64,000 nt of DNA from Thiolapillus brandeum. Its GTDB lineage: Bacteria > Pseudomonadota > Gammaproteobacteria > Chromatiales > Chromatiaceae. A program made the position numbers and the translations under genes. Shown piece after piece: positions 11,447 through 30,966 of this stretch. The stretch lies in NCBI RefSeq assembly GCF_000828615.1, contig NZ_AP012273.1, forward strand, positions 2,232,001-2,296,000. Direction: 5' to 3'. The notes under the pieces are model-generated. The model ran no database searches and was not told the origin of the DNA. It saw nothing but the letters and a program-made list of their open reading frames with translations. Position 1 is the stretch's first letter; the number at the start of each line of letters is the position of its first letter.

Positions 11447-11561
11447 CCGGGGCTGTTGCAGCCCTACGACACCAGGAAACCTCTGAATAATTCATGAACC
11501 AAAAGGAAATGCCCACCGACAATCACTGAGGAACTTTCGCCTCTTTGTCAGAGAAAGCCGC

Positions 11562-12602: not shown

Positions 12603-12604
12603 AA

Positions 12605-12633
12605 TTGCAAATCCTGAAAGAAAGGGATAAAAT
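12605..12633 (+). promoter_or_regulatory. Sigma-70 promoter of rpsU and the macromolecular synthesis genes
   Basis: TTGCAA (12605-12610) is followed after 17 bp by TAAAAT (12628-12633), close to consensus. It lies in the tsaD-rpsU space about 75 bp before the rpsU ATG. Confidence 0.65.
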
Positions 12634-12650
12634 CCCGCGCCTTGCTGCCT

Positions 12651-12667
12651 GTGAACCCCAGGTTCAC
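12651..12667 (+). other. Leader hairpin upstream of rpsU
   Basis: GTGAACC, three bases, GGTTCAC makes a perfect 7-bp stem in the presumed rpsU 5' leader, 40 bp before the start codon. It could be a binding site for S21 autocontrol or a simple mRNA-stabilising stem. Nothing in the sequence decides between them. Confidence 0.4.
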
Positions 12668-12707
12668 GGCGAAACGATGAAGTTTACTAGTTTATATAGA
12701 GGAAGCA

Positions 12708-12923
12708 ATGCCTAGCGTACGCGTAAAAGACAACGAACCTTTCGAAGTGGCCATGCGCCGTTTCAAGCGCTCCTGTGAGAAAGCCGGCATCCTGGCGGAA
12801 GTCCGCCGCCGCGAATTCTACGAAAAGCCCACCTGGGAGCGTAAGCGCAAAGCCGCTGCTGCGGTAAAACGCTGGCAGAAAAAGATTTCCCGCGAAAACC
12901 GCCGGTTCGACCGCGCTTACTGA
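12708..12923 (+). CDS. rpsU: 30S ribosomal protein S21
   Basis: This 71-residue basic protein begins [20 protein letters not shown] and continues [20 protein letters not shown], the standard S21 sequence. It is preceded by AGAGGAAGCA as ribosome binding site. It is the first gene of the rpsU-yqeY-dnaG-rpoD group, which joins initiation of translation, replication and transcription. Confidence 0.97.
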
Positions 12924-12931
12924 TCCAGACC

Positions 12932-13381
12932 GTGTCCGCGCTCAAGCAACGCATCACTGATGACATGAAAGCCGCCATGAAAAGCGGTGACAAGGCGCGG
13001 CTGGGCGTTATTCGCCTGATTCTCGCCGCTGTCAAACAGGTGGAAGTGGACGAGCGCATCGAACTGGATGACGAGCGGCTGCTGAGCCTCCTGGACAAGA
13101 TGGTCAAACAGCGCCGAGACTCCATCAGTCAGTACGAGAGCGCCGGACGCACGGAGCTGGCAGAGCAGGAAAAATTCGAGATCGGCATTATCCAGGATTA
13201 CCTGCCCCAGCAGTTGACGGAAGAGGAAATTGCCGCTCTCATCGATGAGGCCCTGGCCGCTACGGGCGCTGCCAGCATGAAAGACATGGGCAAACTCATG
13301 GGCTGGCTCAAGCCCAAGCTCCAGGGGCGTGCCGACATGGGTGCCGTGAGCGCCAGCATCAAGCAGAAACTCGCCGGCTGA
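12932..13381 (+). CDS. yqeY: GatB/YqeY domain-containing protein
   Basis: This 149-residue protein has the family N-terminus LKQRITDDMKAAMKSGDKAR and the helical domain that resembles the tRNA-binding tail of GatB (EIGIIQDYLPQQLTEEEI, KDMGKLMGWLKPKLQGRADM). It starts at GTG only 8 bp after rpsU. The family is usually found between rpsU and dnaG, as here. Its function is undefined, and a tRNA-related role is suggested only by domain similarity. Confidence 0.92.
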   Translation: MSALKQRITDDMKAAMKSGDKARLGVIRLILAAVKQVEVDERIELDDERLLSLLDKMVKQRRDSISQYESAGRTELAEQEKFEIGIIQDYLPQQLTEEEIAALIDEALAATGAASMKDMGKLMGWLKPKLQGRADMGAVSASIKQKLAG

Positions 13382-13406
13382 CCCGCTGCCCTGCTAAACT
13401 TCCGCC

Positions 13407-15128
13407 GTGGCCGGAAGAATCCCTCCAGAGTTCATCGACAACCTGCTTTCGCGGGTGGACGTGGTTGACATTATCAACCAGCGTGTACCCCTGCGCCGGG
13501 CCGGCCACGAGTACAAGGCCTGTTGCCCCTTCCACGACGAGAAAACCCCCTCCTTCACTGTCAGTCCCAACAAGCAGTTTTACCACTGCTTCGGCTGCGG
13601 CGCCCATGGCACAGCCCTGGGCTTTCTCATGGAATACGACAGACTCAGCTTCCCCGAAGCCGTAGAAGAGCTGGCCACCAGCGTCGGGCTGGAACTGCCT
13701 ACGGAGATTGCCTTCCAGCAGGGGCCGGACAACCGCCCCCTGTATGACCTCCTGGAAGAAGCGGCCGATTGGTACAGCAAACAACTGCACCAGCACCCTG
13801 AAGCACAACGGGCCACAGAGTATTTGCAGCAACGGGGGCTTTCCGGGGAGATTGCCAGGGATTTCCGCATGGGCTTCGCCCCACCCGGCTGGAACAACCT
13901 GATGAAGCAACTGGGCGGCAGCCCGGAACGCTTGCGGCTGCTGGAGAAAGCCGGCCTGCTGTCCAGCGGCAAGGGTCGCCAATACGACCGCTTCCGCGAC
14001 CGCATCATCTTCCCCATACGCGACACCAGGGGCCGGGTGGTGGGCTTTGGCGGCCGGGTCATGGGAGATGATACCCCCAAGTACCTGAACTCCCCGGAAA
14101 CCCCTGTCTTCCACAAAGGCCGCGAGCTGTATGGTCTGTATGAAGCCCGCCAGGCCCTGAAGGATATCGACGCCCTGCTGGTGGTGGAAGGCTACATGGA
14201 CGTCGTTGCCCTGGCCCAGCATGGCATTCGCAACGCCGTCGCCACCCTGGGCACAGCCACTACCCCGGATCATCTGGAAAAGCTCTTCCGCAGTACACCC
14301 AGGGTGATCTTCTGCTTCGATGGCGACCGCGCCGGGCGTGATGCCGCCTGGAAAGCCCTGGAAACCGCCCTGCCCCTGTTGCGCGATGGCCGCCAGGCCA
14401 GTTTCCTGTTCCTGCCCGAAGGTGAAGACCCCGACAGCCTGGTACGGCAGATTGGTGAAGACGATTTCCGTGAAAACCTGCAACAGGCCCAGCCCCTTTC
14501 CGATTTCCTGTTTGGCAAACTGGCCGGGCAGGTGGATATGACCACCCTGGATGGCCGTGCGCGCCTGGTCTCCCTGGCCCGGCCCTATCTGGACAAGCTC
14601 CCCAAGGGGGTATTCCGCGACATGATGGAGCAGCAGCTTACCGAGCTATCCGGCCGCAACATCATTCGCAAATCCCCCGCACCCACCCCGCGCTACAAGA
14701 CTCGCAGCGGCAAGCGCCCAACACTCATGAAACCCGTGCACCGGGCCATTGCCCTGCTGCTGCAGTATCCCGAGCTGGCAGGCATGGAAGACCTGCCCAA
14801 GGGCTGGGAGGATCAGGACAGTCGAGGGGTGAAAATCCTTTCAAAGCTCCTTGATATCCTGCGCGCCAACCCCAATTACACAACAGCCGTACTGGTGGAA
14901 CACTGGGAAGAAGACGATATTCGTCATCATCTGGGGAAACTGGCCATGGCTGAACTGGTGGTATTCGATGATCAGGAAGAACAATTCAGAGGTTGCCTGC
15001 AACGGCTGGAAAAAGAAGCCCGCCAGAACAGCGCCAGCAAACTTCGTCACAAGTTGCGCCCCTCGGACATGACAGAAGAAGAGAAAAACCTCCTGCGCCG
15101 ACTATACTCAAACAAGAAAAAACAGTGA
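13407..15128 (+). CDS. dnaG: DNA primase
   Basis: DnaG makes RNA primers for replication. The 573-residue protein has the N-terminal CHC2 zinc finger (CCPFHDEKTPSF and FYHCFGCGAHG) and the RNA polymerase core (KGRQYDRFRDRIIFPIRD, FGGRVMGDDTPKYLNSPET). Its TOPRIM domain contains LLVVEGYMDVVALAQHG, LGTATTPDH and FCFDGDRAGRDAAWKA. A C-terminal helicase-binding region follows. The start is GTG at 13407, 25 bp after yqeY. Confidence 0.97.
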   Translation: MAGRIPPEFIDNLLSRVDVVDIINQRVPLRRAGHEYKACCPFHDEKTPSFTVSPNKQFYHCFGCGAHGTALGFLMEYDRLSFPEAVEELATSVGLELPTEIAFQQGPDNRPLYDLLEEAADWYSKQLHQHPEAQRATEYLQQRGLSGEIARDFRMGFAPPGWNNLMKQLGGSPERLRLLEKAGLLSSGKGRQYDRFRDRIIFPIRDTRGRVVGFGGRVMGDDTPKYLNSPETPVFHKGRELYGLYEARQALKDIDALLVVEGYMDVVALAQHGIRNAVATLGTATTPDHLEKLFRSTPRVIFCFDGDRAGRDAAWKALETALPLLRDGRQASFLFLPEGEDPDSLVRQIGEDDFRENLQQAQPLSDFLFGKLAGQVDMTTLDGRARLVSLARPYLDKLPKGVFRDMMEQQLTELSGRNIIRKSPAPTPRYKTRSGKRPTLMKPVHRAIALLLQYPELAGMEDLPKGWEDQDSRGVKILSKLLDILRANPNYTTAVLVEHWEEDDIRHHLGKLAMAELVVFDDQEEQFRGCLQRLEKEARQNSASKLRHKLRPSDMTEEEKNLLRRLYSNKKKQ

Positions 15129-15138
15129 CGAACTGCAA

Positions 15139-15168
15139 TTGCACGATAAACAGGTTACGCGGTATAAT
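15139..15168 (+). promoter_or_regulatory. Sigma-70 promoter of rpoD
   Basis: TTGCAC (15139-15144), 18 bp, then a perfect TATAAT (15163-15168) lies in the dnaG-rpoD space, 49 bp before the rpoD ATG. rpoD can therefore be transcribed separately from the upstream genes. Confidence 0.7.
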
Positions 15169-15217
15169 GCGTGGTTCTCTTTTGAGTGTCGGACTTTACG
15201 GTTAATCTGCGAGCATT

Positions 15218-17020
15218 ATGGATCAGCAACAATCTCAATCACGAATCAAAGACCTGATCATCAAGGGCAAGGAGCAAGGCTTCCTGACCTATGCCGAGGT
15301 GAACGACCACCTCCCCGACACTATTGTCGATTCGGATCAGATCGAAGACATCATTCGCATGATCAACGAGATGGGCATCCCTGTCTATGAAACACCCCCT
15401 GACAAGGATGACACAACCATCAATGCCGATGCCGTACCTACGGACGAGGAAACCGCCGAAGCCGCCGCCCTGGCCCTCGCTTCCGTGGACAGCGAGTTTG
15501 GCCGTACCACCGACCCCGTGCGCATGTACATGCGCGAAATGGGCACCGTGGAACTGCTCACCCGTGAAGGGGAACTGCACATTGCCAAGCGCATCGAAGA
15601 CGGCCTCAACCAGGTTGCCGCCGCTCTGGCCACCTTCCCGCCTGCAGTGGAGCACCTGGTCGACCGGTTGGCTGCCGCTGCCGCTGAAGACGCCAAGATG
15701 TCGGATATCATCATCGGCCTCATCGACCCCAACGAGGCCGAGATCACCACGCCGCCTGCACCACCTTCCGCGAAGAAGGACGAGAATGGCGACGACATCG
15801 TAGACACCGGCCCGGATCCCCAGCTCATTATTGACAAGGGCAAGGAACTGACCAAAGCCTTCAATAGCTGGAAACGCCACCTGGACAAGCACGGCAATGA
15901 TGCCAAGGCCAAGAAGCTCAACCGCAAGATCGTGGATATCTTTGCCGAGTTGAAGCTCAATCCCCAGCTGTTCATCGTCATGGGCAATACCCTGCACGAC
16001 ACGGTAAATGGCGTTCGCGAGCAGGAGCGCATCATCCTGAACCTGTGCGTCAACCAGGCAGGCATGCCCCGCCGTGACTTCATCACCAACTTCCCCAAGA
16101 ACGAGACCAATCTGAACTGGGTAAAGGAACAGTGCAAGGGTAAAGTTCCCTACAAGGAAAAGCTCATGGAGCGTTCCGAGGAAATTACCCGCTCACAACG
16201 CAAGCTCGCCACCATCGAGCAGAATTGCCGCATGAGTATCGCCGACATCAAGGAAATCAATCGCCGGATGTCCATTGGCGAAGCCAAGGCACGCCGGGCA
16301 AAAAAGGAAATGGTCGAAGCCAACCTGCGCCTGGTTATCTCCATCGCCAAGAAATACACCAACCGCGGCCTGCAATTCCTGGATCTCATTCAGGAAGGCA
16401 ACATCGGCCTGATGAAAGCCGTGGACAAGTTCGAGTACCGCCGGGGCTACAAGTTCTCCACCTATGCCACCTGGTGGATCCGGCAGGCCATCACCCGTTC
16501 CATTGCGGACCAGGCCCGCACCATCCGTATTCCGGTACACATGATCGAAACGATCAACAAGCTCAACCGCATTTCCCGGCAAATGATCCAGGAAAAAGGC
16601 CGCGAGCCTACCCCGGAAGAACTGTCCGAACGCATGGAAATGCCCGAGGACAAGGTTCGCAAGGTGCTAAAAATCGCCAAGGAACCCATCTCCATGGAAA
16701 CCCCCATCGGTGACGATGAAGACTCCCACCTGGGGGATTTCATTGAAGATCAGGGCGCCATCTCGCCCATCGATTCCGCCACCATGGAAGGCCTGCGCGA
16801 GTCCACCCAGAACATGCTGGCCGGCCTGACCCCCCGAGAAGCCAAGGTGTTGCGCATGCGTTTCGGTATCGACATGAACACTGACCACACCCTCGAGGAA
16901 GTAGGCAAGCAGTTCGATGTCACCCGCGAACGCATTCGCCAGATCGAAGCCAAGGCCCTGAGAAAGTTGCGTCACCCCACCCGTTCGGAGAAAATGCGCA
17001 GCTTCCTCGACGGCGACTGA
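15218..17020 (+). CDS. rpoD: RNA polymerase primary sigma factor (sigma-70)
   Basis: The 600-residue protein is the housekeeping sigma factor. Region 1.1 is at the N-terminus ([20 protein letters not shown]). Region 1.2 ([20 protein letters not shown]) is followed by an acidic non-conserved insert. Region 2 has [20 protein letters not shown] and the -10 recognition helix [20 protein letters not shown]. Region 4.2 ends [20 protein letters not shown] and [11 protein letters not shown]. It is the last gene of the group, and the tRNA-Ile2 gene follows 22 bp later. Confidence 0.97.
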
Positions 17021-17042: not shown

Positions 17043-17119
17043 GGGCCCTTAGCTCAGTTGGTTAGAGCAGTCGACTCATAATCGATTGGTCGTAGGTTCA
17101 AGTCCTACAGGGCCCACCA
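17043..17119 (+). tRNA. ileX: tRNA-Ile2 (CAU anticodon, lysidine type)
   Basis: A 77-nt cloverleaf ends in CCA. The acceptor arm GGGCCCT pairs with AGGGCCC, the D arm holds GCTCAGTTGGTTAGAGC, the anticodon loop is CTCATAA, and the T arm is GTAGG-TTCAAGT-CCTAC. A CAT anticodon could mean Met or Ile2, but the overall sequence (CCCTTAGCTCAGT, CGACTCATAATCG) closely matches E. coli tRNA-Ile2 rather than either Met tRNA, so it should read AUA after lysidine modification by TilS. Its last 45 bases are repeated at 29498-29542, so it is the integration site of an island. Confidence 0.93.
17075..17119 (+). repeat. Island attachment repeat, left copy (within tRNA-Ile2)
   Basis: This is the 45-bp segment running from the anticodon loop to the CCA end of the tRNA. 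It is identical to 29498-29542. Confidence 0.9.
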
Positions 17120-17380: not shown

Positions 17381-17674
17381 TCAGCCCACCCAATGCAGAA
17401 CAAAATCCACATGGATCTCATCATAGGGGAATCGTGCCTGGCGCTCGCAGTTTCTTTCCACCAGACCGGCATCTGCCAGGGCCTGAATGTCACAATGTAC
17501 GGCGCTCACATCCCTGCCGATCCGGCGGACGATTTCCCGAATGGACAGATACCTCTGCCCGGCCATGCTTTGCAACAGTTCCATTTTCTTGGGGGAAAGA
17601 ATCTTCCACAGGGCCTCCACGTTGTCAAAGCTGATTCGTGAAGACAGGGCTTTGTCCTCGGCCAGGTCTAACAT
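17381..17674 (-). CDS. Small HTH protein, TumA/HVO_A0114-type antitoxin-like
   Basis: This 97-residue protein has ISFDNVEALWKILSPKKMEL then SIREIVRRIGRDVSAVHCDI and ALADAGLVER, ending FPYDEIHVDFVL. This is the winged-helix pattern of small MarR-like regulators, some of which are antitoxins paired with a DUF6516 toxin. No toxin gene is present on either side. The coding sequence seems to lack the N-terminal stretch of longer relatives and abuts an IS200-like fragment, so it may be 5'-truncated. It is probably a remnant of an older toxin-antitoxin locus. Confidence 0.6.
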   Translation of the reverse strand: MLDLAEDKALSSRISFDNVEALWKILSPKKMELLQSMAGQRYLSIREIVRRIGRDVSAVHCDIQALADAGLVERNCERQARFPYDEIHVDFVLHWVG

Positions 17675-17849: not shown

Positions 17850-19925
17850 TCAAGAAGGCATCGCTTCGTTGAATCCTTCTTTTCTCAGGCGTTCAAAAAT
17901 ATCAATACATACCAAAGCCTGATTTTCCGTTGGAATTTTACTTGGTATACTCCCGGCTATTTTCAAGACACCAATTTCTTTTTCTGTTAGAAATCCATAT
18001 TCTTCACCCCAACTTGCAACAGACCGCCAGAACTCATTACCACCTTTGACAACAGCAGTTTGTGCCTCAATACCATTAAGAATCTTTTGGTCCTTCCGTC
18101 CATCACGTTTTCTTGATGCAACATCATCCTTGCCGATTAACTCTTCCAAGAACCCGCTGGGCCATTCAACATCAACGTTTTTGACACGCTCCCAGCAGGC
18201 CTGTTTCTTTGCCCATTCAGTCACGTTCCTGATTCCCATCGGTGGTTCGATCAATATGTCATGCACAATCTTTGACACCTCAACAAGTGCCTTTTCCATT
18301 TCTTGGCTGATTAATTGTTGCTCCCAAATTCTAGAGAAATCTACAGACTTCTCCATCTTAATGACGTCATGAGCAATTTTCGATATCGCGTATGCCACGA
18401 TGTTGGCCCTGTACCCACCCTCATACCATGGCTGGTCAGAAACAATTTTTTCTGTTCGTTTAAAAATGATCGCCTTTGCAATAGCATCCTTGAAAAAAAT
18501 TTCATTGAAATCCTTCTCTCTTTTCTGCCATGCATCGCCGATTGCGCGCGCGAAGTAAGCAAAATTCTTTTGGGCACCCAAGCTTACTCTATCCGGCCGC
18601 GGTTCCCAGACCGTCAGAAACTTCGCAAGATCGGTTTTTGAGACAAGTTGTTTTCTTGGATTCTCCAAATCGAACTTCCTTCGCTCTGCAGGAGTGAGCA
18701 GTGATCGAGCATCGTTATACTGACCACGAGCACGCTCATAGAACCATTTGGTTTGCCGAAAGGTCCCATCTGGTGAAGGAGCATAGATGCGGCGTGAGAA
18801 GTCTTCCATTCGTATGTGAAAGGGGTGATTTGCAAAAAAATCTGCCGCATTCACTCTATTTTGACTGTTTGCATATTCGGAGATCTTTGGCACTACCTCT
18901 TCTGCTCGTTCTGGGGCCACGATGGAGAGCTTCATCTGAACGAAGACCTTGGAAAGGTCGACTTTATTACGGAAAGCTACATGGATGGAAGCAGTAGTCT
19001 GACCACCATTGACTATTTGAAAATTTCTGAGCCCCGTGAGCATAAGCTGGTCATTTTTTCCCTCGGCAACTACAGATTGGGCTGTAGCAGTGATACCATT
19101 GTTGTAGGCAAAAAACATCTCTGGTTCATTCTGAAGTGTATTCCTGATCCCTTTGTTAACATTGCCTCGTGCCTGCAGAAATACTCGTACATTTTGTTCG
19201 AGAAGCCTGGCTCCCCATCTATCATAGATGCTTGCCAATATGCCGCCCGGAACAACTACCAAGTAGGATTCATACTCTTCCGCTGAAAGGTGTGCGGGAA
19301 GTATCGGTAAAGCTGTATTAAAATCCTTTTTAAGATCGATTTCGATATCCTCTTTCCCATGTCCAACCGTAGCGAAACGATATAGACGCTTGATGTCCCA
19401 AACGCTGTATGTGACGGCTCGGCCTTCAAATTCATCAGCCTCTCTTCCATCGACTCGTTCGCTAAGCTCCCGATTACTGATCAGAATCAGCCGAATGCGA
19501 TTGACTGTTTTCCAGCGTTGGGAAATCAAATCAGCAAGACCAAAAGCAAAGCTGGTTTCCTCCAATGCATTCCGCCAATTCGGATCCAAAGACTTCTTAA
19601 GGAATTTGAAGAGACGCTTGAAGATGGTATTCATCTCCGTACCTGTCAGGCGTCCCACTTCATGGGATTGGTTGAAATCCGCAATGATGAGACTCAGAGT
19701 GCCCAAAGAGTCAAGTGGATCTCCACCATAGCCATCAACTCTTATTCCAGTTCCAGGTCGTCCCAGATAGAAAGCCCGGTCAGCAGTTTGGAGCTCACCT
19801 GCATCCGTTAGATATTCACAGAATGTATCGAAAAATACGTCTTCTATAAAATCCCCATCAGCATCCGCTTCAGCAAGAATTTCCTGAAAAACACCCTCGT
19901 TAAACTCATCAATGTTAATTGCCAT
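17850..19925 (-). CDS. AIPR-family protein (MZA-type operon, last gene)
   Basis: This 691-residue protein contains the AIPR signature: PEMFFAYNNGITATA, then LRNFQIVNGGQTTASIH, then KISEYANSQNRVNAADFF. AIPR proteins were named for abortive-infection phage resistance and occur in restriction-like and MZA operons. The N-terminal part (GIRVDGYGGDPLDSLG then LSLIIADF) has the strand pattern of a nuclease fold, but no clear lysine completes a PD-(D/E)XK motif. It overlaps the DUF4420 gene by 11 nt and ends the leftward five-gene operon. Its exact biochemical role is unknown. A+T-rich codon use fits the island. Confidence 0.82.
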   Translation of the reverse strand: MAINIDEFNEGVFQEILAEADADGDFIEDVFFDTFCEYLTDAGELQTADRAFYLGRPGTGIRVDGYGGDPLDSLGTLSLIIADFNQSHEVGRLTGTEMNTIFKRLFKFLKKSLDPNWRNALEETSFAFGLADLISQRWKTVNRIRLILISNRELSERVDGREADEFEGRAVTYSVWDIKRLYRFATVGHGKEDIEIDLKKDFNTALPILPAHLSAEEYESYLVVVPGGILASIYDRWGARLLEQNVRVFLQARGNVNKGIRNTLQNEPEMFFAYNNGITATAQSVVAEGKNDQLMLTGLRNFQIVNGGQTTASIHVAFRNKVDLSKVFVQMKLSIVAPERAEEVVPKISEYANSQNRVNAADFFANHPFHIRMEDFSRRIYAPSPDGTFRQTKWFYERARGQYNDARSLLTPAERRKFDLENPRKQLVSKTDLAKFLTVWEPRPDRVSLGAQKNFAYFARAIGDAWQKREKDFNEIFFKDAIAKAIIFKRTEKIVSDQPWYEGGYRANIVAYAISKIAHDVIKMEKSVDFSRIWEQQLISQEMEKALVEVSKIVHDILIEPPMGIRNVTEWAKKQACWERVKNVDVEWPSGFLEELIGKDDVASRKRDGRKDQKILNGIEAQTAVVKGGNEFWRSVASWGEEYGFLTEKEIGVLKIAGSIPSKIPTENQALVCIDIFERLRKEGFNEAMPS

Positions 19926-20925
19926 TTACTCCTCCCCCTAGCAATTGCTTCACCTTCTCCTTGTCAGTTCGATATTGCAAGCATTCCTGAAGCGATAGGG
20001 AATACCGGACTCGACTGATTCCGACTGGATACATGTCTGGGGTTATCTTTGGAAATTTGTCGCCAACAATGTACAGGTACTCTGTACCCAGCAACCATTT
20101 CTGATCCCGATAGTCATCAGCCCAATTGAAACCTGCGGCCAATAATCGCTCTTCAAATATTTCTATAACGGAAGAATCCCTTTTCTGGACTTCATTGAAA
20201 ACTTCCCGAGCCATACTTGTAACGGTGATGGCATTTTCATCATCAGTTACGGCTGAAGTAACTTCCAAGACCCGCAAGACAAGTGTATTGATACCTTTGG
20301 TATCCAGCTGAAACTCATTCGAAATATTCACAAAGGGTGTTGCAGCGCCCCGCCGAGTCTTGGATTCGATACAAACCTTTCCGATCTCAAAATCCTTGGG
20401 TGCATTGAGAGGTCCAGTCCAAGACCTGATCGCCGTCTGCATTCTAACGCTTGGCATAAGGATGTGCCGCAAAGTGTGTAGTTCACCGATCAACCCCCTT
20501 TGCTCTTCATCGCTCAACCGACCGTCTCTTCCACTTCGCAAGAGTCTATGCCAACGCCATGTTCTAGCCAAGAAGCGTTCCGATGCCTCCTTTTCGGTTC
20601 CAGCTATCCGTGTTGCTTCTATAATGTCCTCGCAGAGGCGGAGGAAGATCTCTCGTTGTTCCTTGTCGATTAGACGCAGCATCAGAATAGCCGAGTTATC
20701 CGCATCCTGTACCTGCAATTTGATTTCGAGTCCCCGCAACTTTGGCAACCGGTTAGCTGGCCTATTGGCGGGATCATGGCGCAACACCAGAAGACAGTTT
20801 TGATCAGTATCCAACGCCCAGTACAACCGCCAAGCAATTTCTGGATCTACGAGGCGGCTGCTCAAGGTGGTCGGCTTGCCCGGCGGAGGAAGGGGTTTCC
20901 AAGGATCGGCGCCTTCAGTCATCAT
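19915..20925 (-). CDS. DUF4420 PD-(D/E)XK nuclease-like protein
   Basis: This protein of about 336 residues contains GLIGELHTLRHIL, then PKDFEIGKVCIESKTRRG. Together they give the E ... D-x(n)-ExK pattern of PD-(D/E)XK nucleases (Asp in KDFEI, Glu and Lys in ESK). It is the probable DNA-cutting subunit of the MZA-like operon. The start at 20925 (MMTEGADPW) overlaps the Z1 gene by 11 nt. An upstream ATG at 20949 would overlap by 35 nt. It is tightly coupled with both neighbours. Confidence 0.8.
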   Translation of the reverse strand: MMTEGADPWKPLPPPGKPTTLSSRLVDPEIAWRLYWALDTDQNCLLVLRHDPANRPANRLPKLRGLEIKLQVQDADNSAILMLRLIDKEQREIFLRLCEDIIEATRIAGTEKEASERFLARTWRWHRLLRSGRDGRLSDEEQRGLIGELHTLRHILMPSVRMQTAIRSWTGPLNAPKDFEIGKVCIESKTRRGAATPFVNISNEFQLDTKGINTLVLRVLEVTSAVTDDENAITVTSMAREVFNEVQKRDSSVIEIFEERLLAAGFNWADDYRDQKWLLGTEYLYIVGDKFPKITPDMYPVGISRVRYSLSLQECLQYRTDKEKVKQLLGGGVNGN

Positions 20926-23641
20926 CACCCCCGATTTCTTCCTCGTCAACTTCCTCCCGATACCGCTCCCTGAACCAGGTCGTGTTAACTACATACTCGA
21001 CCTTCTTTTCCTCATGTTTGGTTTGAGGAAAACTGATGCTCCAGGCAACCATCGGTTTCGCTTGGCTGAGATCTTCATCTTCTGAACCGATAGCCAGTAA
21101 ATGCACAATCAGAAGCGGCCGCTTCCTCACCCTGCGGTAGATGCGGTCAGGATAATTCAGTTTATCGGGATTCCTTGGCGGATCAGTTTCGTTTCTGTAG
21201 TCAGACTTCGCCTTCTCTATCTGTTTGTTGGTGAGGCCAATCTGTTCGATACCGCGAGAAGAGACGCGTTGCTTCTCGGTTACAAGTAGGGTCTTTTCAT
21301 CACTTCTTCGTCCGGCCGACCGCCGTTGGCAAACGATTTCGAACCCCAGACTCGTATCGACGAGCGATTTTTCGGATCTTCGTGAGACTCCTGCAAAATA
21401 CAAATCCCATTCCGACAGTTCCGTCTGCATGCGCTCCTCGATATACTTCCTTACAGGATCTGTGTCCGTCAGCAACGAACCGGGATGGTTTCGAAATTCT
21501 GCAAGGAAATTGATCACGAAATCAGCTGGGACATCTCGAACCAGTTTTCCGCTCTTGAGGTCTTCGAACTTCTCAGGAATAAAACCGTTAGACCGTAATT
21601 GTTGCGCCAATTCAATCGCGGCTCGATGGTTGGCGCTTCGGCTTTCCTCATCCCGCCGCAACACGGCTGTTTCGACAAACCGGTTTGCCAAGCCAATTGA
21701 GACGACAAGTTTCTCCCCTGACCCCATCTTGTTCCTCGCTGTCACGATCAGCGTATCGGGATGGCTCCGGACCTTGAGGCCAAACTCTCGGGGAGTCGCA
21801 TTGGCTGCTTCCATGCGACGGAGTTCATCTCTTAGTTCTTCAATCGATTCAGCAATATGCGCATACCATCCTTCTGCCTCTTCAAGCATCCAGATGCGGC
21901 ACAGATCCTGGTATCCGGGGCGGTAGCCGAACCACCGCCCCATTTGCATTAACGTATCGTACATCATGGAGTTGCGTAGAAAGTAGCTGACAACCAGCCC
22001 TTCCAGCGTCAGTCCCCGAGAGAGAGAAAAGCCTCCGACCGCGATGATGTTCAATCCGGACCTCTGATGGTCGGCGTAATCGAGTGAATCCGAAGAGCGG
22101 CTGTTTATCTCGATGACATTTATGGGGCTCACACTGTCCCAGAGTCTTCCCTGCACCTCTTCCCAAGATGTACCCACGTCGCCGTATTCCCCGACAAACA
22201 CTTCATGAAGGGCTGCAATCTCTGTGTTTCCTAACGCCTCCAACTCGGGCTTGGCTCCGTTGACTCTTATGCTGCTCCCGATCTGTTTCACCAAATTGTG
22301 AATTTCATTCCGAAGTTGTCTTTGGACATCCGTAAAACGGGATGCATTCACCAGCATCGAATTGTGGCTGTTCTCCTGCCCGCGAACAAGCCGGATTGCA
22401 CGTGCCAGAATGAATGTCCTTACTGCTCGCTCCAGACTTTCTGGCAACCCGGCGATAATATGGTCTTTCTTGTGCTTCAGGGGCAATAGGTCTTCGTTGT
22501 CCTCGATGTGGCGGATGATTGATATTCCCTTGTCATCCCCCGGGTCACTTAGGAAAACCTGAGACGCTCCAAAATAGTTGTCAGGTGGATCGAGACTTAC
22601 AATAAAGTCTCTCGGGAAGAGATCTTCACCGAACATCTCATCATCGCTGTCCGGATCAATGAAGATGTTTGCGAAAGGTGTGGCTGTATATCCAACATAA
22701 CAGCTTCGGTCGAACACATCGAGGAGTTGCCGGATCTGCCCGTTGATACGTGACACCTCCTCCTTCCCCTTCTTGATGTTGATTGAAGCATTATCGGCCT
22801 CATCATCAATCAGAAGCAATGGCGCGCCAATCGAGGATGTTCCACGCCTTGCGTTATGCTCCTTGAGCCATTCAAGAAGGTTCTTGAGTGTACTGGTATT
22901 CTTTTTAATGACAAATACTGCGGGCTCCTTCAGGTTCTCAAGTGGAATGCCAACACTGGTTGCGGTCTGCTTGTTGAAATCCCTGAGCGTGTTTGTGAAG
23001 GCATTTGGCCGTCGGCTGGAGTCATATCGCCCAACGCCGATGATGCTTGTGGCCTCAGCCTGGTTCAACAGAAGCTTGGAACTATCAAAACCTATGAAGC
23101 CCTCGTCGAGACGCATCTGGGTTTGGCTGCGAAGATTGTTGTGGATACCTGCAATGATAATGATAACCTGATATCCAGCATCAGCTGCCTTGCATATGAG
23201 CCCAGTATAATTAGCTGTCTTTCCCGATTGCACATGCCCGACGACCATGCCACGTCTATCCCATTTTCCTGATTTCCTTGGATTCTCCAGCAGCCCTAGA
23301 GTCCTGTCAGTTACACTGTCAAGTGTTGCCAGAACTTGGCCTGAGAATCCCCTTTCAGCCAGCAAACGGCGATATCGGTCCCAGTAGTATGGATTTATCT
23401 TTGCTTTGGCCTCGTCCAGCCACTTCTCAAATCCGGCTTCCTGCAAGGTAACCCCAATATCCATGGTCACACCATGAACATGTTCGAATTCCAGAGCCAG
23501 TTGTTCAGCCTCTTCATCCGTGACAGACGGATAGAGCGATCGCACTCTCTGGATCTGCTCTCGTATCATTTCAGGAGTAGGCAAGCGCTTCGCCAGCCAT
23601 GCACTGACCATGTCTCTCAAGTCTTGCAGTTCGTCGTTCAT
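20915..23641 (-). CDS. Z1-domain superfamily II helicase/ATPase
   Basis: This 908-residue protein has helicase motif I (GHVQSGKTANYTG, around residue 135), motif II as LLLIDDEADNAS, motif III YVGYTATPFANIF, and the Z1-domain blocks SRGLTLEGLVVSYFLR and MGRWFGYRPGYQDLCRIW. Z1 proteins were described by Iyer, Abhiman and Aravind in restriction-modification operons with MutL/MORC-type ATPases, and later as part of the MZA antiphage system. It likely moves on or remodels DNA with the neighbouring GHKL ATPase and nuclease. It starts 4 bp after the ATPase gene and overlaps DUF4420. Confidence 0.88.
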   Translation of the reverse strand: MNDELQDLRDMVSAWLAKRLPTPEMIREQIQRVRSLYPSVTDEEAEQLALEFEHVHGVTMDIGVTLQEAGFEKWLDEAKAKINPYYWDRYRRLLAERGFSGQVLATLDSVTDRTLGLLENPRKSGKWDRRGMVVGHVQSGKTANYTGLICKAADAGYQVIIIIAGIHNNLRSQTQMRLDEGFIGFDSSKLLLNQAEATSIIGVGRYDSSRRPNAFTNTLRDFNKQTATSVGIPLENLKEPAVFVIKKNTSTLKNLLEWLKEHNARRGTSSIGAPLLLIDDEADNASINIKKGKEEVSRINGQIRQLLDVFDRSCYVGYTATPFANIFIDPDSDDEMFGEDLFPRDFIVSLDPPDNYFGASQVFLSDPGDDKGISIIRHIEDNEDLLPLKHKKDHIIAGLPESLERAVRTFILARAIRLVRGQENSHNSMLVNASRFTDVQRQLRNEIHNLVKQIGSSIRVNGAKPELEALGNTEIAALHEVFVGEYGDVGTSWEEVQGRLWDSVSPINVIEINSRSSDSLDYADHQRSGLNIIAVGGFSLSRGLTLEGLVVSYFLRNSMMYDTLMQMGRWFGYRPGYQDLCRIWMLEEAEGWYAHIAESIEELRDELRRMEAANATPREFGLKVRSHPDTLIVTARNKMGSGEKLVVSIGLANRFVETAVLRRDEESRSANHRAAIELAQQLRSNGFIPEKFEDLKSGKLVRDVPADFVINFLAEFRNHPGSLLTDTDPVRKYIEERMQTELSEWDLYFAGVSRRSEKSLVDTSLGFEIVCQRRSAGRRSDEKTLLVTEKQRVSSRGIEQIGLTNKQIEKAKSDYRNETDPPRNPDKLNYPDRIYRRVRKRPLLIVHLLAIGSEDEDLSQAKPMVAWSISFPQTKHEEKKVEYVVNTTWFRERYREEVDEEEIGGDDD

Positions 23642-23645
23642 TCAA

Positions 23646-25109
23646 TTACCTTTTAAAAATTATTTCCTTTGCTTCTTCCCATCGTGACTTGAACGGCTCT
23701 GCCGAAGACATCATCAATTGAATATCCTCTTCTGAATACTTCTCATCCTTGAGAATACTATAAGTCCTTTTCACGATCTCGCAGAACGATTCACCATCGA
23801 GTTCCTGAGGTGAAACGCTTTCCGGCGTCGAGCTCACATCGGAAAAAATCGTATCTATCGGCATGGCTGAACCGACAAGATCCAGAAGGCGCAAAAACTT
23901 GTGTTGTTGTTGGTTCGTCAATTCTTCTGAAAAATTTTTGAAAGCCGGATGCTCCGGATTGAGGCGATAGTGAATCCGGTTCTTGTCCTGTACACGTATC
24001 CAGACCGGCAATCGGTTATCACTGATCAGGCGCTTTCCTCGTGAAACATAGATTCTCCTCGAACCAGCACCGATCGTTTCTATGATACGTCTCAGCCTGT
24101 CCCTAACCGGACCTGGCGGCTGGGCCGAGGCTTTCTTGACATCAATTTTCCATTCGGCGTCCATTCCGTTTGGCATATCAATTCGAACTCTGGCCAACTT
24201 CGTCAGTTCTGTTTGCTTGGCAAGTCCGAACCATGTGCCATGGATAATCAGACGTTTCTCCCTGTAGAGGTAGAATCCCTGATTCTTGATGTACCCCTCT
24301 GGACCGGCATATCTGTTCCAATCCTCTGCAGACACTTTCTTGTGATGAGGCAAAGTAAAAGTCTGAATCAAGATTTCATGATCACCGAATCTAAAAACCT
24401 CTTCTGGTCCATGAATTGTTGCGTCATGACGCGAGTGAAAAGGGTCGAAAGGTTCCAATGGCCGCCCGTTAAGGGACATACTCACTCGCTTTAATCCCTT
24501 TTCGCCCGCAAGATATCTGTGAAATACGAGTTCCAGATGAGAAGCAGTTTCATCTATCTGGCGGTTCATATTCTTATGATCGCCTCCATTCCTTTCGTCT
24601 ATCAACCGGTCAAGTTTCTGCCATACAACCAGTGTGCCACTGCTTGACAAACATTTTCCCCAAGGGATATCAGAAAAGCTACTCGGAAATTCAACAATCC
24701 AGTCTTCCTCCTTGGCAACCGTATCCAGATCCCAGATCGCACATGAAGTTTCTTCTCCTTTTCTTGTGAGGACAATCAGTCTTCTGCTCTGTGAAAATGA
24801 TGCCGTCTTCAGACCAAGGCCGAATCTTCCAAGGTCGTGGATAGCGCGCTTATCAAGAGGGTTCTTTGTGCCTGGTCGCATGGCCTCAAGCAATTCGGTT
24901 TTTGACATCCCGCACCCGTCATCAAGAATGCCGATAGCAGGATTTTCTGAGTCCGTATCAGTCAAGAGTTTAACTGTGTTTGCTCCCGCCGTGATGGAGT
25001 TATCGATTACATCTGCCACAGCTGTCTGCAGAGAATATCCAATATCTCTCATGCTCTCGATGAGCACAGAGGCCCTTGGAGCCAGTATTTCCCGATCGGA
25101 TACCGTCAT
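23646..25109 (-). CDS. MutL/MORC-type GHKL ATPase
   Basis: This 487-residue protein has the GHKL ATP-binding motifs: motif I TAVADVIDNSITAGA (around residue 30), motif II ILDDGCGMS and motif III LGRFGLGLKTASFSQ. The C-terminal part has no sequence like the endonuclease domain of repair MutL, which is encoded separately at 57.6 kb. Such proteins are the MutL component of MZA-type defence operons and relate to eukaryotic MORC ATPases. It probably acts as an ATP-driven DNA clamp or sensor. It follows vsr by 35 bp and precedes the Z1 gene by 4 bp. Confidence 0.85.
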   Translation of the reverse strand: MTVSDREILAPRASVLIESMRDIGYSLQTAVADVIDNSITAGANTVKLLTDTDSENPAIGILDDGCGMSKTELLEAMRPGTKNPLDKRAIHDLGRFGLGLKTASFSQSRRLIVLTRKGEETSCAIWDLDTVAKEEDWIVEFPSSFSDIPWGKCLSSSGTLVVWQKLDRLIDERNGGDHKNMNRQIDETASHLELVFHRYLAGEKGLKRVSMSLNGRPLEPFDPFHSRHDATIHGPEEVFRFGDHEILIQTFTLPHHKKVSAEDWNRYAGPEGYIKNQGFYLYREKRLIIHGTWFGLAKQTELTKLARVRIDMPNGMDAEWKIDVKKASAQPPGPVRDRLRRIIETIGAGSRRIYVSRGKRLISDNRLPVWIRVQDKNRIHYRLNPEHPAFKNFSEELTNQQQHKFLRLLDLVGSAMPIDTIFSDVSSTPESVSPQELDGESFCEIVKRTYSILKDEKYSEEDIQLMMSSAEPFKSRWEEAKEIIFKR

Positions 25110-25144
25110 GCCTTAGCCACATCCCCCAATTACAACTTTGTGAA

Positions 25145-25633
25145 TCATCCCAAACTTTTTGTGCTGCCACTCGGGACAGGATTCGGCAATATGGCAGGGA
25201 ATTCACCGCCCTTGCAGTTCATATCACGAAGTTCCCTGTCCAGTTCCAGAAGAACCCCCTCTGAATCATGTCTCAAGCCACATTCCCACACAGTAAAGAC
25301 ACGCCATCCTGCCCGTTCAAGAGACTCTTTATTTTTTATATCCCTTTCTTGGTTTCCCCTCAATTTCTCAGCCCAAAACTCTGGACGCGTTGATGGAGTT
25401 GCTGCGTAACGACAATTTGGATGTTGGTGCCAAAAACAACCATGAACAAACACTACCGCTCTATACTTGGGCAGCACAAGATCCGGCTTGCCTAGAAGCT
25501 TGCGGTCATGTAGACGATACCGAAAACCACGAGCATACAATCCTTTACGGACGAGCATTTCTGGAACAGTATCCTTGCCCCTAATAGCAGACATCATGCG
25601 TGACCGTGTACGAGAATCAACGATGTCCGTCAT
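25145..25633 (-). CDS. vsr: Very short patch repair endonuclease (Vsr)
   Basis: Vsr nicks DNA next to T:G mismatches formed when 5-methylcytosine deaminates. The 162-residue protein has the family blocks RSRMMSAIRGKDTVPEMLVR, GFRYRLHDRKLLGKPDLVLP and VFVHGCFWHQHPNC, including active-site and zinc-binding positions. It is the first gene of the MZA-like operon and is divergent from a cytosine methyltransferase, which explains its presence. An ISL3 element now lies just upstream: its left end is at 25644, 11 bp beyond the ATG, with the target duplication starting 2 bp before the ATG. Confidence 0.92.
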   Translation of the reverse strand: MTDIVDSRTRSRMMSAIRGKDTVPEMLVRKGLYARGFRYRLHDRKLLGKPDLVLPKYRAVVFVHGCFWHQHPNCRYAATPSTRPEFWAEKLRGNQERDIKNKESLERAGWRVFTVWECGLRHDSEGVLLELDRELRDMNCKGGEFPAILPNPVPSGSTKSLG

Positions 25634-25635
25634 TT

Positions 25636-25643
25636 ATTTTCAA
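25636..25643. repeat. ISL3 target-site duplication, left copy
   Basis: ATTTTCAA here is repeated exactly at 26984-26991 on the far side of the IS. Eight bp is the duplication length typical of ISL3. Confidence 0.9.
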
Positions 25644-26983
25644 GGCTCTTCGACGTTTCATGTGGATTTGAGCACGGCACCCGCCGGGCTGGCGATCATG
25701 TAAATCATGGTCATGAAGGTTCGGTTATTCCGATAACCTCTGGCCCGTGCTCTGGCAGCCTGGAACAGGCTGTTCAACCCTTCCATCCGAGCATTGGTAT
25801 AGGTTGATGTCCATCGGCGTACTACACGCTCCGCATGGTTCTCCAAGGTAGCCAACGCTTTGCGAACGGGTTCCAGAAGAGTGCTTTCGCCAATGAGTTC
25901 CCTGGCGTAGCCAATGAACCGCGTTATCCGCCATCGTGCTGCCCTGGGTGTCTTGGCCAACCGTATCCAACGCAGCCGCTCCTTGATCCGCCATGCCGTG
26001 GCCGTATCCAAGCCCTGATCCAGCAACTCAGCCAGTGCTTTGAGTTGATTGGTGGTTAGATTGTCTGTGTCGCCTCGCTTGAGTACGCCCCAGCGAAGGT
26101 GCTTGGGCAAAGGTTTGATTTGCCCTTCTTGCTTTCTCACGGCATCCAAGGCCTGGGTAAATGTCTGTACGATATGAAACCAATCCACCGTGACCTCAGC
26201 ATTGGGCAGCGTCTCTTCTATCCCCTTGAGAAAGGCCGGTGACATGTCACACACGGCTTCCCGAACAGCCTCTGGCTCACCTTTATGGGCAGCCAGAAAC
26301 GCAGAAAACTGCTGCAGGGTCCGCTTTCCCTTACCTGGTGTGACAAACAGCACCGGTTCCTCGCGTTTCTCCATGTCAATGAATACCGTGACATAGTTGT
26401 GCCCTCGCTTACTGGCAGTCTCGTCCAATCCGACCACTTTGAGGCCCGACAGATCAAACTGCTCAATAGCCTGGCCAACATAGTGTTCCACGATGCGCCA
26501 CAAGCGTTTGTCAGTAATCTCAATGATGCGGGCTGCTGCATTGACGGGCATCTCCCGAACCAGGGTCAATGCCGCCTGTTCAAACAACAAGGTAAAGGCG
26601 CTGCCCTTGCGTGCCCAGGGAACATCAATCAATTTGACTCCATGCTCGGGACACTTCACACGCGGCACCGAGGTATGGATGTAACAATGGTGCTGGAAGA
26701 AGTTCAGATGCCGCCAAGTCTTCTCCTGAAAATCATGGGCCTTACAAAGCTGGTCACATTCAGGGCAGGCATACTTTGAAGCCTGTTCCGCCTTCACTTC
26801 CAAGTGAAGTTCATGCGGTTGCTTATCCGTATCCAGGTATTGGTTCATCAGTTTCCAAGGGGATTGGATGCCCAAGCCAAGCAGCAGAATCTCGTTGCCG
26901 TCCACGTCTTTTCCTCATGCCAGTAGTTGACGTTATACTGGCATAGGTTTCTAAAGTAATTCCACTCGAAACGTCGAAGAGCC
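25644..26983 (-). mobile_element. Complete ISL3-family insertion sequence
   Basis: The 1340-bp element has 26-bp terminal inverted repeats that begin GGCTCTTCGACGTTTC at both ends and match at 22 of 26 positions. It is flanked by a perfect 8-bp duplication (ATTTTCAA). One intact transposase fills it. The perfect duplication and intact gene suggest a recent insertion. It separates vsr from the methyltransferase gene, which were divergent neighbours about 93 bp apart before insertion (103 bp now counting the extra copy of the duplication and flanking bases outside the IS). Confidence 0.93.
25658..26905 (-). CDS. ISL3-family transposase
   Basis: This 415-residue protein has an N-terminal zinc-finger-like region (YACPECDQLC, then VKCPEHGV), a helix-turn-helix-like region, and a DDE catalytic core with GLDETASKRGHNYVTVFID and VTVDWFHIVQTF. 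The C-terminal block TYTNARMEGLNSLFQAARAR is typical of ISL3 transposases. The gene is full length and its 3' end runs into the left terminal inverted repeat. It reads in the same direction as vsr. Confidence 0.93.
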   Translation of the reverse strand: MDGNEILLLGLGIQSPWKLMNQYLDTDKQPHELHLEVKAEQASKYACPECDQLCKAHDFQEKTWRHLNFFQHHCYIHTSVPRVKCPEHGVKLIDVPWARKGSAFTLLFEQAALTLVREMPVNAAARIIEITDKRLWRIVEHYVGQAIEQFDLSGLKVVGLDETASKRGHNYVTVFIDMEKREEPVLFVTPGKGKRTLQQFSAFLAAHKGEPEAVREAVCDMSPAFLKGIEETLPNAEVTVDWFHIVQTFTQALDAVRKQEGQIKPLPKHLRWGVLKRGDTDNLTTNQLKALAELLDQGLDTATAWRIKERLRWIRLAKTPRAARWRITRFIGYARELIGESTLLEPVRKALATLENHAERVVRRWTSTYTNARMEGLNSLFQAARARARGYRNNRTFMTMIYMIASPAGAVLKST

Positions 26984-26991
26984 ATTTTCAA
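26984..26991. repeat. ISL3 target-site duplication, right copy
   Basis: ATTTTCAA, identical to 25636-25643. Confidence 0.9.
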
Positions 26992-27005
26992 ATACACAAA
27001 AGTTT

Positions 27006-27043
27006 TATCATGATTCCAAATATAGCATGATGGTATCATGATT
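27006..27043. promoter_or_regulatory. Repeated palindromic operator-like sites upstream of the methyltransferase
   Basis: Two copies of TATCATGATT (27006-27015 and 27034-27043), each holding the 8-bp palindrome ATCATGAT, lie 28 bp apart. A third, weaker site (CATGATG at 27025) makes an inverted pair with the second. They sit in the region that, before the IS inserted, separated the divergent methyltransferase and vsr promoters. They may bind a regulator or the methyltransferase itself. Function is inferred. Confidence 0.5.
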
Positions 27044-27074
27044 TAATTTCCCATAAGTCAGACAAGGGGAATTC

Positions 27075-28604
27075 ATGATCAGAGTCATTGACCTCTTTGC
27101 TGGTCCCGGAGGACTGGGAGAAGGTTTTTCCTCGCTCCGTGATGCTTCCGGGCAAGGTATGTTCCAAATCTGCATGTCGGTGGAAAAGGAGCCTAGTGCG
27201 CATGCGACACTTCAGCTTCGAGCTTTTCTTCGGCAATTCGAATTTGGACAATTTCCTTCCGAATATCATGATTATCTGAGAGGAGCCATTGACCAGAAAG
27301 AACTTCTGGATGCATGGCCGAAACAGGCAAAAGCCGCAATACAGGAAACAATGGGACGTCCTTTGGAACTGGGAAAGGACAATGTGGCAATTCATGATCG
27401 TTTGAGGGAACTAAAAAAAACGTATCCTGATGATGCTTGGGTTGTTATTGGCGGACCACCCTGCCAAGCCTATTCGCTTGCCGGTCGATCACGCAATCGA
27501 GGAAAAAGAGATTATCGACCAGAAAAGGATGAACGAAATTTTCTCTACCGTGAATATCTCCAAGTACTATCCATCGTACAGCCTGAAGTATTTGTCATGG
27601 AAAACGTCAGGGGCATGCTCTCTGCGAAAGTGGCTGGACGTAAAATCTTTCACGATATTATTTCAGATCTACGCCGCCCAGGACTTTCCTGCAACCAAGG
27701 CCAATCCCACTCCTTGGAGTACAGAATTCATTCCTTGGTGACTGAAGGAGATGAGGACGTCCTATCACCTCAGGATTACCTCATTCGCGCGGAAAATTAT
27801 GGTGTTCCTCAGACTCGACACCGCGTTATACTTCTGGGCGTACTCGCCAATGCTCATCGCACCCCGCAAACATTGAGAAACGCCACTCACGTTACCACTG
27901 TACAAGAAACCATCTCCAAGCTGCCCAATTTGCGCGGTCGCATTTCCAGGGGTGGCGACTCACCTGATGCATGGAAAAGAGCTATCTTGGAAGGTTTGGC
28001 CAAAGCAAAAAAAGAATTGTCCTCTAGAAACAGGCATGTATATTTTGCTATGCAACAGGAAAGCAAGAATCTGGATCCAAACCTGCCGGTAAAAACGAAT
28101 AACTATCCTGACGGGAAGCCTCTCTTTGAGAAATCTTTATCGAGAAATCTCAAAAATTGGCTCTCAGGACAAGCTACAGTGCTTACTGGCCATGAAACTC
28201 GCGGACACATGGCCTCCGATCTTCAACGATATTTTTTTTCCAGTTGCTGGTCATTGTTGCACAAAGGGTCTTCTCCCCGCTCTGGGGACTTTCCCTTGGC
28301 CTTGGAACCAGATCATGCCAACTGGCGAACTGGGCAGTTTGCTGATCGCTTTCGAGTGCAGGGTTGGAATCTACCTTCAACAACTATAACAAGCCACATA
28401 TCAAAGGATGGCCACTATTTTATTCATCCAGCACCGGCTCAATGCCGTAGCCTTACCCCTCGCGAAGCCGCGCGCCTACAGACATTTCCAGATGATTACT
28501 TTTTTATGGGAAACAGAACCCAGCAGTATGTTCAGATAGGGAATGCTGTTCCCCCTTGGCTTGCCAGACAAATTGCTGAAGTAGTATTTGAATTCCTGTC
28601 ATAA
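27075..28604 (+). CDS. DNA (cytosine-5-)-methyltransferase
   Basis: This 509-residue protein has the ordered 5mC methyltransferase motifs: I VIDLFAGPGGLGEGF, IV VIGGPPCQAYS with the catalytic cysteine, VI FVMENVRGM, VIII VPQTRHRVILLG, IX SLTPREAARLQTFPDDY and X QIGNAVPPWLARQI. It should methylate a specific site in host DNA. The target cannot be read from sequence. The adjacent vsr fits a 5mC system, and the linked Z1/MutL/nuclease operon is probably the restricting part. Start ATG follows GACAAGGGGAATTC. Confidence 0.93.
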   Translation: MIRVIDLFAGPGGLGEGFSSLRDASGQGMFQICMSVEKEPSAHATLQLRAFLRQFEFGQFPSEYHDYLRGAIDQKELLDAWPKQAKAAIQETMGRPLELGKDNVAIHDRLRELKKTYPDDAWVVIGGPPCQAYSLAGRSRNRGKRDYRPEKDERNFLYREYLQVLSIVQPEVFVMENVRGMLSAKVAGRKIFHDIISDLRRPGLSCNQGQSHSLEYRIHSLVTEGDEDVLSPQDYLIRAENYGVPQTRHRVILLGVLANAHRTPQTLRNATHVTTVQETISKLPNLRGRISRGGDSPDAWKRAILEGLAKAKKELSSRNRHVYFAMQQESKNLDPNLPVKTNNYPDGKPLFEKSLSRNLKNWLSGQATVLTGHETRGHMASDLQRYFFSSCWSLLHKGSSPRSGDFPLALEPDHANWRTGQFADRFRVQGWNLPSTTITSHISKDGHYFIHPAPAQCRSLTPREAARLQTFPDDYFFMGNRTQQYVQIGNAVPPWLARQIAEVVFEFLS

Positions 28605-28639: not shown

Positions 28640-29302
28640 TTAATCCACAACCGGATAACGCGGATCCCCCCAAAGTTGGTTACCACTATCGAGCATGATG
28701 GAAATAATGGTCGGCACCAGTTGGTCAAGAATAGCTGTGGCTTGCTTTAATTGAGTACGGTTAGTACTACTATTCCATGTAGCACTGCCATGAAATAGTT
28801 GGTTGCGCAGAACATAAAGGCGTTCGAAAACTACCAATAACACCTTTCGGGTATCTGATTTTCCCAGCGCCCGCATAGCAGATTCCTTGCTACGCTGAAA
28901 CTTTCTTTCCCAGCCTTCTTTTGCCATGCAGCCCTTCTGATATTCCCAGAATGGTTGAAAGACATAGCGATTATCTAGCAGCAGGCGGATGGCATTGGGA
29001 AACTCTTTCCAGACAATTTCATACAGGCGCCCTTCTTTGTCATTTTCAATCAGTCGTCCCAGAAAATGCAGGAACAGGCGCGTCTCTGAAAAGCGCAGAT
29101 CATCATGCAACTCATTCGCATAAGCTGAGTTAAAGGCAATCCATAAGAAAATAAAGCGGGCATCGTCATCATGCGATTCCTGCTCAGCCCGATGCAGCCA
29201 ACTCAGTGCCCGGTGAGTGCGCAAGGACAATGCTTGTGGGAAATCATCGCGTAGTTCACGGTGGCGATCTTTTAATATGTGGTAATTCAGAATTTGGTTC
29301 AT
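28640..29302 (-). CDS. HEPN-domain protein with RX4H motif
   Basis: This helical protein of about 220 residues has RFIFLWIAFNSAYANEL early and RLYVLRNQLFHGSATW near the C-terminus. RNQLFH is the RX4H motif of HEPN ribonucleases, which act in abortive infection and toxin systems. It converges on the methyltransferase gene, with 35 bp between stop codons. The start is placed at 29302 (MNQILNYHILKDRH); an upstream ATG at 29332 would add ten hydrophobic residues. Candidate RNase effector of the island, but no activity can be read directly, and non-catalytic HEPN proteins exist. Confidence 0.7.
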   Translation of the reverse strand: MNQILNYHILKDRHRELRDDFPQALSLRTHRALSWLHRAEQESHDDDARFIFLWIAFNSAYANELHDDLRFSETRLFLHFLGRLIENDKEGRLYEIVWKEFPNAIRLLLDNRYVFQPFWEYQKGCMAKEGWERKFQRSKESAMRALGKSDTRKVLLVVFERLYVLRNQLFHGSATWNSSTNRTQLKQATAILDQLVPTIISIMLDSGNQLWGDPRYPVVD

Positions 29303-29374
29303 GGCCAGATATAGGACGATCATACAACTCACTACACCTTACCACGTGTTTTATTCCAACCAATACAATACTTG

Positions 29375-29497: not shown

Positions 29498-29542
29498 CTC
29501 ATAATCGATTGGTCGTAGGTTCAAGTCCTACAGGGCCCACCA
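29498..29542 (+). repeat. Island attachment repeat, right copy (partial tRNA-Ile2)
   Basis: An exact 45-bp copy of the 3' part of tRNA-Ile2 without a matching 5' half, so it is not a functional tRNA. Confidence 0.92.
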
Positions 29543-29772: not shown

Positions 29773-30342
29773 TGGCAGACCAAAAACAGATACATTTGAC
29801 CGATGCGCGCGCTCGCGCCCTCAAGCCGCAGGCGAAAGCCTATGAACTGGCGGACGCCGGTTCATAGGGGTTGAGACTGCGAATCAGCCCCAAGCCTGCG
29901 GCATCGAATATGGCGATATATTCGGGGATCAGTGGCGGCTTCCGTCGCACAAAAGTAAAATGGGCGCGTGCATATCGTATATCTCTCCGTCCCCGCCCTG
30001 GCGGTGCTGGAACGACAAAAGGCACGCAGCAAAAGCAAGAAATGGGGGTTTCACAATCCCGCGTCCAGTCTTGGGCATGAACGGGGAGATACGATGGCAA
30101 AAGCGCTGAAATCCATCCTTCCCACCTTGGAACTGGAACCGTTCACACTTCACGATCTCAGGCGCACGATGGCGACGTGGTTGGGAGAAAACCAGGTCGA
30201 TGAAGCAATCCATGATCGGATGCTCAATCATGTTACGGGCGGGATTCGCAAAGTCTATAACACGGCGAAATACAATGAGCCGGCGCGGGATTGGTGGGCG
30301 TGCTGGGGCGAGCATATCGCCGCACTCGGGGAATCAGCTTGA
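29773..30342 (+). pseudogene. P4-type tyrosine integrase pseudogene
   Basis: The N-terminus (MADQKQIHLTDARARALKPQ) matches DUF4102-type island integrases but hits a TAG after ADAGS. GLRLRISPK continues in frame beyond the stop. A large middle part is missing. The C-terminal catalytic part reopens near 29968 with LSVPALAVLERQKAR, then FTLHDLRRTMATWLGE (HxxR), DRMLNHVTGG and the tyrosine region RKVYNTAKYNE, ending at 30342. It belongs to a second element that used the same tRNA site and is inactive. Confidence 0.8.
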
Positions 30343-30343
30343 C

Positions 30344-30372
30344 TTGAACAGATGTAGCCTATGGGCTACAGT
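30344..30372 (+). promoter_or_regulatory. Promoter and palindromic operator of the toxin-antidote operon
   Basis: TGTAGCC, TATG, GGCTACA (30353-30370) is a perfect 7-bp-arm palindrome placed between a possible -35 TTGAAC (30344-30349) and overlapping a possible -10 TACAGT (30367-30372, spacer 17). If correct, transcription would start at or next to the toxin ATG. Binding by the HTH antidote is the expected autoregulation. Confidence 0.55.
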
Positions 30373-30378
30373 AGGGGC

Positions 30379-30687
30379 ATGGGATATGAAGTACGCACCA
30401 CGCCGGTTTTCGATCAATGGCTCAAAGAGCTGAAAGATCGGCGGGCGGTACGCGCCATCATGCTGCGGCTTGCACGGGCTGAGGCGGGCAACCTGGGCGA
30501 CATCAAGCCGGTTGGCGGTGGTGTGCGCGAGATGCGACTGTTCGTTGGTAAAGGGTACCGCCTTTATTTTTCGATTCAGGGCGAGACCTTGTTGCTATTG
30601 CTCAATGGCGGCATCAAAAGCAACAAGAAGCAGCAACAGCTAGACATCCAGCGGGCAATCCGGATTGTAGAGGAAATCGAGGACTAG
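30379..30687 (+). CDS. RelE/HigB-type toxin (addiction module killer protein)
   Basis: This toxin of about 102 residues starts MGYEVRTTPVFDQWLKELKD and has the family blocks RIMLRLARAEAGNLGDIKPV-like (here AIMLRLARAEAGNLGDIKPV), VREMRLFVGKGYRLYF and LLLLNGGIKSNKKQQQLDIQ. Toxins of this type cleave mRNA at ribosomes. The partner antidote begins 3 bp after its stop. The ATG at 30379 is preferred over an in-frame ATG at 30361 that lies inside the operator palindrome. Confidence 0.85.
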   Translation: MGYEVRTTPVFDQWLKELKDRRAVRAIMLRLARAEAGNLGDIKPVGGGVREMRLFVGKGYRLYFSIQGETLLLLLNGGIKSNKKQQQLDIQRAIRIVEEIED

Positions 30688-30690
30688 ACC

Positions 30691-30966
30691 ATGAAAACCC
30701 AACCGTTCAATCCATTCGACTACCTGGAGACACAGGAAGAGATCAACGCCTACCTACAGGATTGCTTCAACGATGAAGATCCGCAGGTGTTCGTCAATGC
30801 GCTGGGGCACCTGGCGCGACACTATGGGGTAAGCGAAGTAGCCCGCGCGGCCGGTCTCAATCGAGAGAGCCTGTACAAGATCTTCAACGGCAAAGCCCAA
30901 CCGAAGTGGGACACAGTGCGCCGGTTGATGAAGGCGCTACATGTGGATTTAACTATCGCGGCTTGA
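30691..30966 (+). CDS. HTH antidote of the addiction module
   Basis: The 91-residue protein has the typical start FNPFDYLETQEEINAYLQD and a helix-turn-helix LARHYGVSEVARAAGLNRES followed by LYKIFNGKAQPKWDTVRRLM. It matches the putative addiction module antidote family whose genes follow the killer gene. It should neutralise the upstream toxin and repress the operon through the palindrome at 30353-30370. Confidence 0.87.
   Translation: MKTQPFNPFDYLETQEEINAYLQDCFNDEDPQVFVNALGHLARHYGVSEVARAAGLNRESLYKIFNGKAQPKWDTVRRLMKALHVDLTIAA

Follow-up and report, generated by a model that had tools for sequence, protein, structure and literature searches.

If the enzyme that marks self DNA is swapped and the cutter shows little matching change, how does the cutter know what to spare? 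This question is raised by an island of Thiolapillus brandeum within a window (the whole stretch of DNA analysed here) of 64,000 nucleotides (nt), positions 2,232,001 to 2,296,000 of contig NZ_AP012273.1. The island carries vsr and a four-gene core for a GHKL ATPase, a Z1 helicase, a DUF4420 nuclease and an AIPR protein, with an opposed gene (dcm) for a 5-methylcytosine (5mC) methyltransferase. Here it is proposed, tentatively and with somewhat less than an even chance, that the methyltransferase acts as the sequence reader for the core. The operon reported in the first-pass annotation was confirmed, and its family placements hold in profile searches. The core names below refer to MZA, reportedly the mzaABCDE set of Gao 2020, and positions are those of the window.

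17850-19925, minus strand: AIPR protein, 691 amino acids (aa), MzaE-like.
19915-20949, minus strand: DUF4420 nuclease of the PD-(D/E)XK type, 344 aa, MzaD-like.
20915-23641, minus strand: Z1 helicase gene, in the place of MzaC in the order.
23646-25109, minus strand: GHKL ATPase, 487 aa, MzaB-like, of the paraMORC class.
25145-25633, minus strand: Vsr mismatch endonuclease, 162 aa, with D51 and H69 conserved.
27075-28604, plus strand: C5 cytosine DNA methyltransferase, 509 aa, with PPCQ at 128, ENV at 176 and GNAV at 489.

The linkage of these genes was counted on those loci, 73 from a set of 126 related ones, that carry the four-gene core and are fully flanked. The dcm gene was found in 71 of the 73 and vsr in 61, so the methyltransferase linkage claimed earlier holds elsewhere; with two border cases added, every one of the 73 shows a C5 methyltransferase or a match to such an enzyme. 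The linkage of core and dcm spans 17 layouts, and the linked methyltransferases differ in C5 subfamily and in target domain. Likeness of the target domain (the variable target region lies at about residues 285-375 in the island enzyme) served as a proxy for target sequence. Core pairs more than 80% alike may carry target-recognition domains less than 30% alike, and the converse also occurs. Vsr tracks the methyltransferase target domain, and the core proteins track it weakly, AIPR the most. Taken together, these comparisons suggest that dcm and vsr form an exchangeable cassette; an incomplete literature search found nothing in print on such exchange with little matching change in the core.

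The core resembles a restriction machine driven by ATP, in which DUF4420 is the predicted nuclease. The DUF4420 residues E156, D186, E195 and K197 are each kept in 97% or more of the sequences in an alignment of 112, and this E-D-ExK set is consistent with the cutting role suggested for DUF4420 in the first-pass annotation. The GHKL ATPase has no clear ExxxH in a 38-sequence consensus, as judged by eye. Vsr scores 141 bits against TIGR00632 (cut-off 97.85), and its D51 and H69, which we take to be catalytic, are present in 97% or more of an alignment of 91 sequences. Vsr was also considered as the restriction enzyme itself; repair is likelier because the mismatch-repair motifs are intact and Vsr goes with the methyltransferase, not with the core. 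The repair of deaminated sites, as first suggested, is thus in keeping with the motifs.

That the methyltransferase guards the sites cut by the core, as in the same annotation, is a putative role, and no clear matching reader for such sites was found in the core, where AIPR comes nearest. It is probably the methyltransferase that chooses the target, or else the core lacks sequence specificity. In the proposed mechanism, the exchangeable dcm-vsr cassette would set the target sequence, the methyltransferase would act as the sequence reader and DUF4420 would be the nuclease. This explanation is preferred because the linkage to the core is close to universal. In a broader form, held a touch more tentatively, the core would be a four-gene effector without its own reader. 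Whichever C5 methyltransferase accompanies it (together with Vsr) would decide the target, the effector either using that protein as its specificity subunit or reading 5mC itself; if true, E. coli MZA would rely on the host dcm-vsr. Some observations weigh against the methyltransferase as reader. Related cores accept different C5 subfamilies, which counts against a single docking surface, and the AIPR C-terminus in three relatives (L042, L130 and L202), together with partial correlations, makes a reader within the core more plausible, for which reason confidence in the preferred explanation was lowered.

The first-pass label of MZA-like is fair. Homologues of MzaB, MzaC, MzaD and MzaE were found in the common order and families (PADLOC 284, 538, 59 and 301 bits, respectively); however, all four miss the NCBIfam equivalog cut-offs (MzaB 350 of 850 bits, MzaC 641 of 1500, MzaD 110 of 420 and MzaE 373 of 1050), and the island, unlike MZA, lacks a sigma-like MzaA and has its own dcm and vsr. 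The MzaA search gave seven matches in the genome, namely rpoD, a sigma-like frame at window positions 813-1517 and five elsewhere; of these seven, none but rpoD adjoins the island, and rpoD is the only one compared further and the sole window match of the N-terminal MzaA profile. In a quick tree of 136 rows, the window falls in a 108-row clade with a support of 100, and all 10 MzaA rows lie outside it. On sequence grounds, the system is MZA-like, yet not MZA in the strict sense. The rpoD gene (15218-17020), beside the island, matches the PADLOC MzaA profile with 257 bits, and this match could make an automatic caller wrongly complete an MZA system. At the E. coli G1/2 locus (L216:5760-8602), the place of mzaB is annotated as two pieces flanking an IS421 transposase gene.

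A standard MZA system beside a gene that is there by chance would account for the profile matches of MzaB to MzaE; it is very improbable given the missing MzaA, the missed cut-offs, the position outside the MzaA clade and the linkage of a methyltransferase in almost every fully flanked relative. A rather unlikely alternative is a core that responds to phage DNA or to replication structures regardless of methylation, with dcm-vsr as a loose companion such as an addiction or anti-restriction module. The weak tracking of the target domain by the core would fit this, as would the lack of a local dcm-vsr at both E. coli MZA loci that were opened; however, near-universal linkage over 17 layouts is hard to square with an unneeded companion, and in the single MZA-bearing E. 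coli strain examined around dcm, both dcm and vsr are present on the chromosome.

That host dcm-vsr pair also favours a different and less likely explanation, in which the core itself reads 5mC in any context, treats DNA along which it meets none as foreign, and can be served by any C5 methyltransferase. The presence of such an enzyme or a match at all 73 loci and the variety of subfamilies and target domains agree with it; however, no 5mC-binding domain was matched in the core at E 0.01, and self-recognition would be unreliable if marks were sparse. Less likely still, the core may hold a reader of its own that suits each methyltransferase and is so diverged or so small that identity windows miss it, with AIPR as the best candidate.

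A DndB/ParB-like fold was considered for AIPR, whose motif QIVNGGQTT resembles DGQHR of DndB; the DndB N-terminus is assigned to the AbiU1/AIPR family in the portion of the source available (PMC3506569). Profile comparison gave no support: the whole alignments reached E 0.43, next to two unrelated control comparisons at E 0.20 and 0.41, and four trimmed AIPR regions gave E 0.26-0.73, one trimmed run aligning both motifs. The fold is kept as no more than a lead.

The original gap of 93 bp between vsr and dcm, a divergent promoter region, is split by an insertion element.

25644-26983, no strand assigned: ISL3 insertion element, 1340 bp, with 26-nt terminal inverted repeats and a transposase at 25658-26905 (minus strand).
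25636-25643, right copy at 26984-26991: perfect 8-bp target-site duplication, ATTTTCAA.
27000-27049: possible operator in the original gap, an imperfect inverted repeat whose arms are ATCATGAT.

Because 10 bp of upstream sequence remain between the vsr start and the element, the operon's original promoter was probably displaced. A promoter scan of the gap with the element included gave no promoter-like sites, a result without weight either way. Other matches to the element in the genome are partial (71-86% identical).

The island is transferable. Its left attachment repeat is the 3' 45 nt of tRNA-Met (17075-17119), with an exact second copy at 29498-29542, bounding an element of 12.4 kb. The G+C content of the core is 0.48, versus 0.60 upstream (1-17000) and 0.58 downstream (36000-64000).

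17043-17119, plus strand: tRNA-Met (CAT), the integration site, adjoining rpoD.
17381-17674, minus strand: small helix-turn-helix protein of the HVO_A0114 family (81.8 bits, cut-off 27.6), inside the island at the tRNA end.
28640-29332, minus strand: HEPN-like protein, 230 aa, RNQLFH at 176, a probable passenger.
29498-29542, plus strand: right attachment repeat, an identical 45-nt copy of the tRNA-Met 3' end.
29968-30342, plus strand: C-terminal remnant of a tyrosine integrase, outside the element, beyond the right repeat.

The tRNA end was compared at 12 loci including that of the window, and is exact in five; among the four relatives with the exact end, a clear downstream match was found only in a genome of the same genus (L220). 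There, the sequence from 174 bp past tRNA-Met matches window positions 31983-33301 at 80%, and therefore that relative carries no part of the island in the stretch from tRNA-Met to the transporter gene downstream. The HEPN-like protein has no Pfam family above cut-off, and as a part of the system it was rejected and judged a passenger, with no homologue among the open reading frames of the 126 related loci; homologues were found on 26 plasmid records, of which the one opened adjoins conjugation genes. No partner gene was recognised for the HVO_A0114-family gene. A Gp49-like and addiction-module antidote pair, likely a toxin-antitoxin (30361-30966), is flanked by the integrase remnant on one side and a transposase with rve domains on the other.

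Among other known systems, CglI and NgoAVII have as nuclease a separate PLD-B3 protein that brings a DNA-binding domain of its own, according to the part of the source available (PMC4267653); no such Pfam match was found in 10 proteins of the island region. The best PADLOC match of the methyltransferase is DrmMII, and no other Drm family of DISARM is among the matches listed for the 10 proteins (for the methyltransferase, the best 25 of 56). One further system has an EcoRII-like endonuclease, with no GHKL, AIPR or Vsr described in the available part of its source. The gene arrangement of the island had been published before (Iyer 2008, PMC2292703; Miller 2022, PMC9523054, both as far as the available portions go). 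The putative defence system Type II of Miller 2022 is about 20% identical to mzaBCDE, and Vsr, unlike in the island, is not named in the part available. As far as the available text of Iyer 2008 goes, DNA looping is predicted and a target-reading part is not discussed; its system shares with the island the GHKL ATPase, an SFII helicase with the DThhQXuRhFG motif, a restriction-endonuclease (RE)-fold nuclease with E-D-ExK, AIPR, DCM and Vsr, with no difference in gene kinds found. The operon of the island, predicted to act against phages, is of a known kind that has been little studied.
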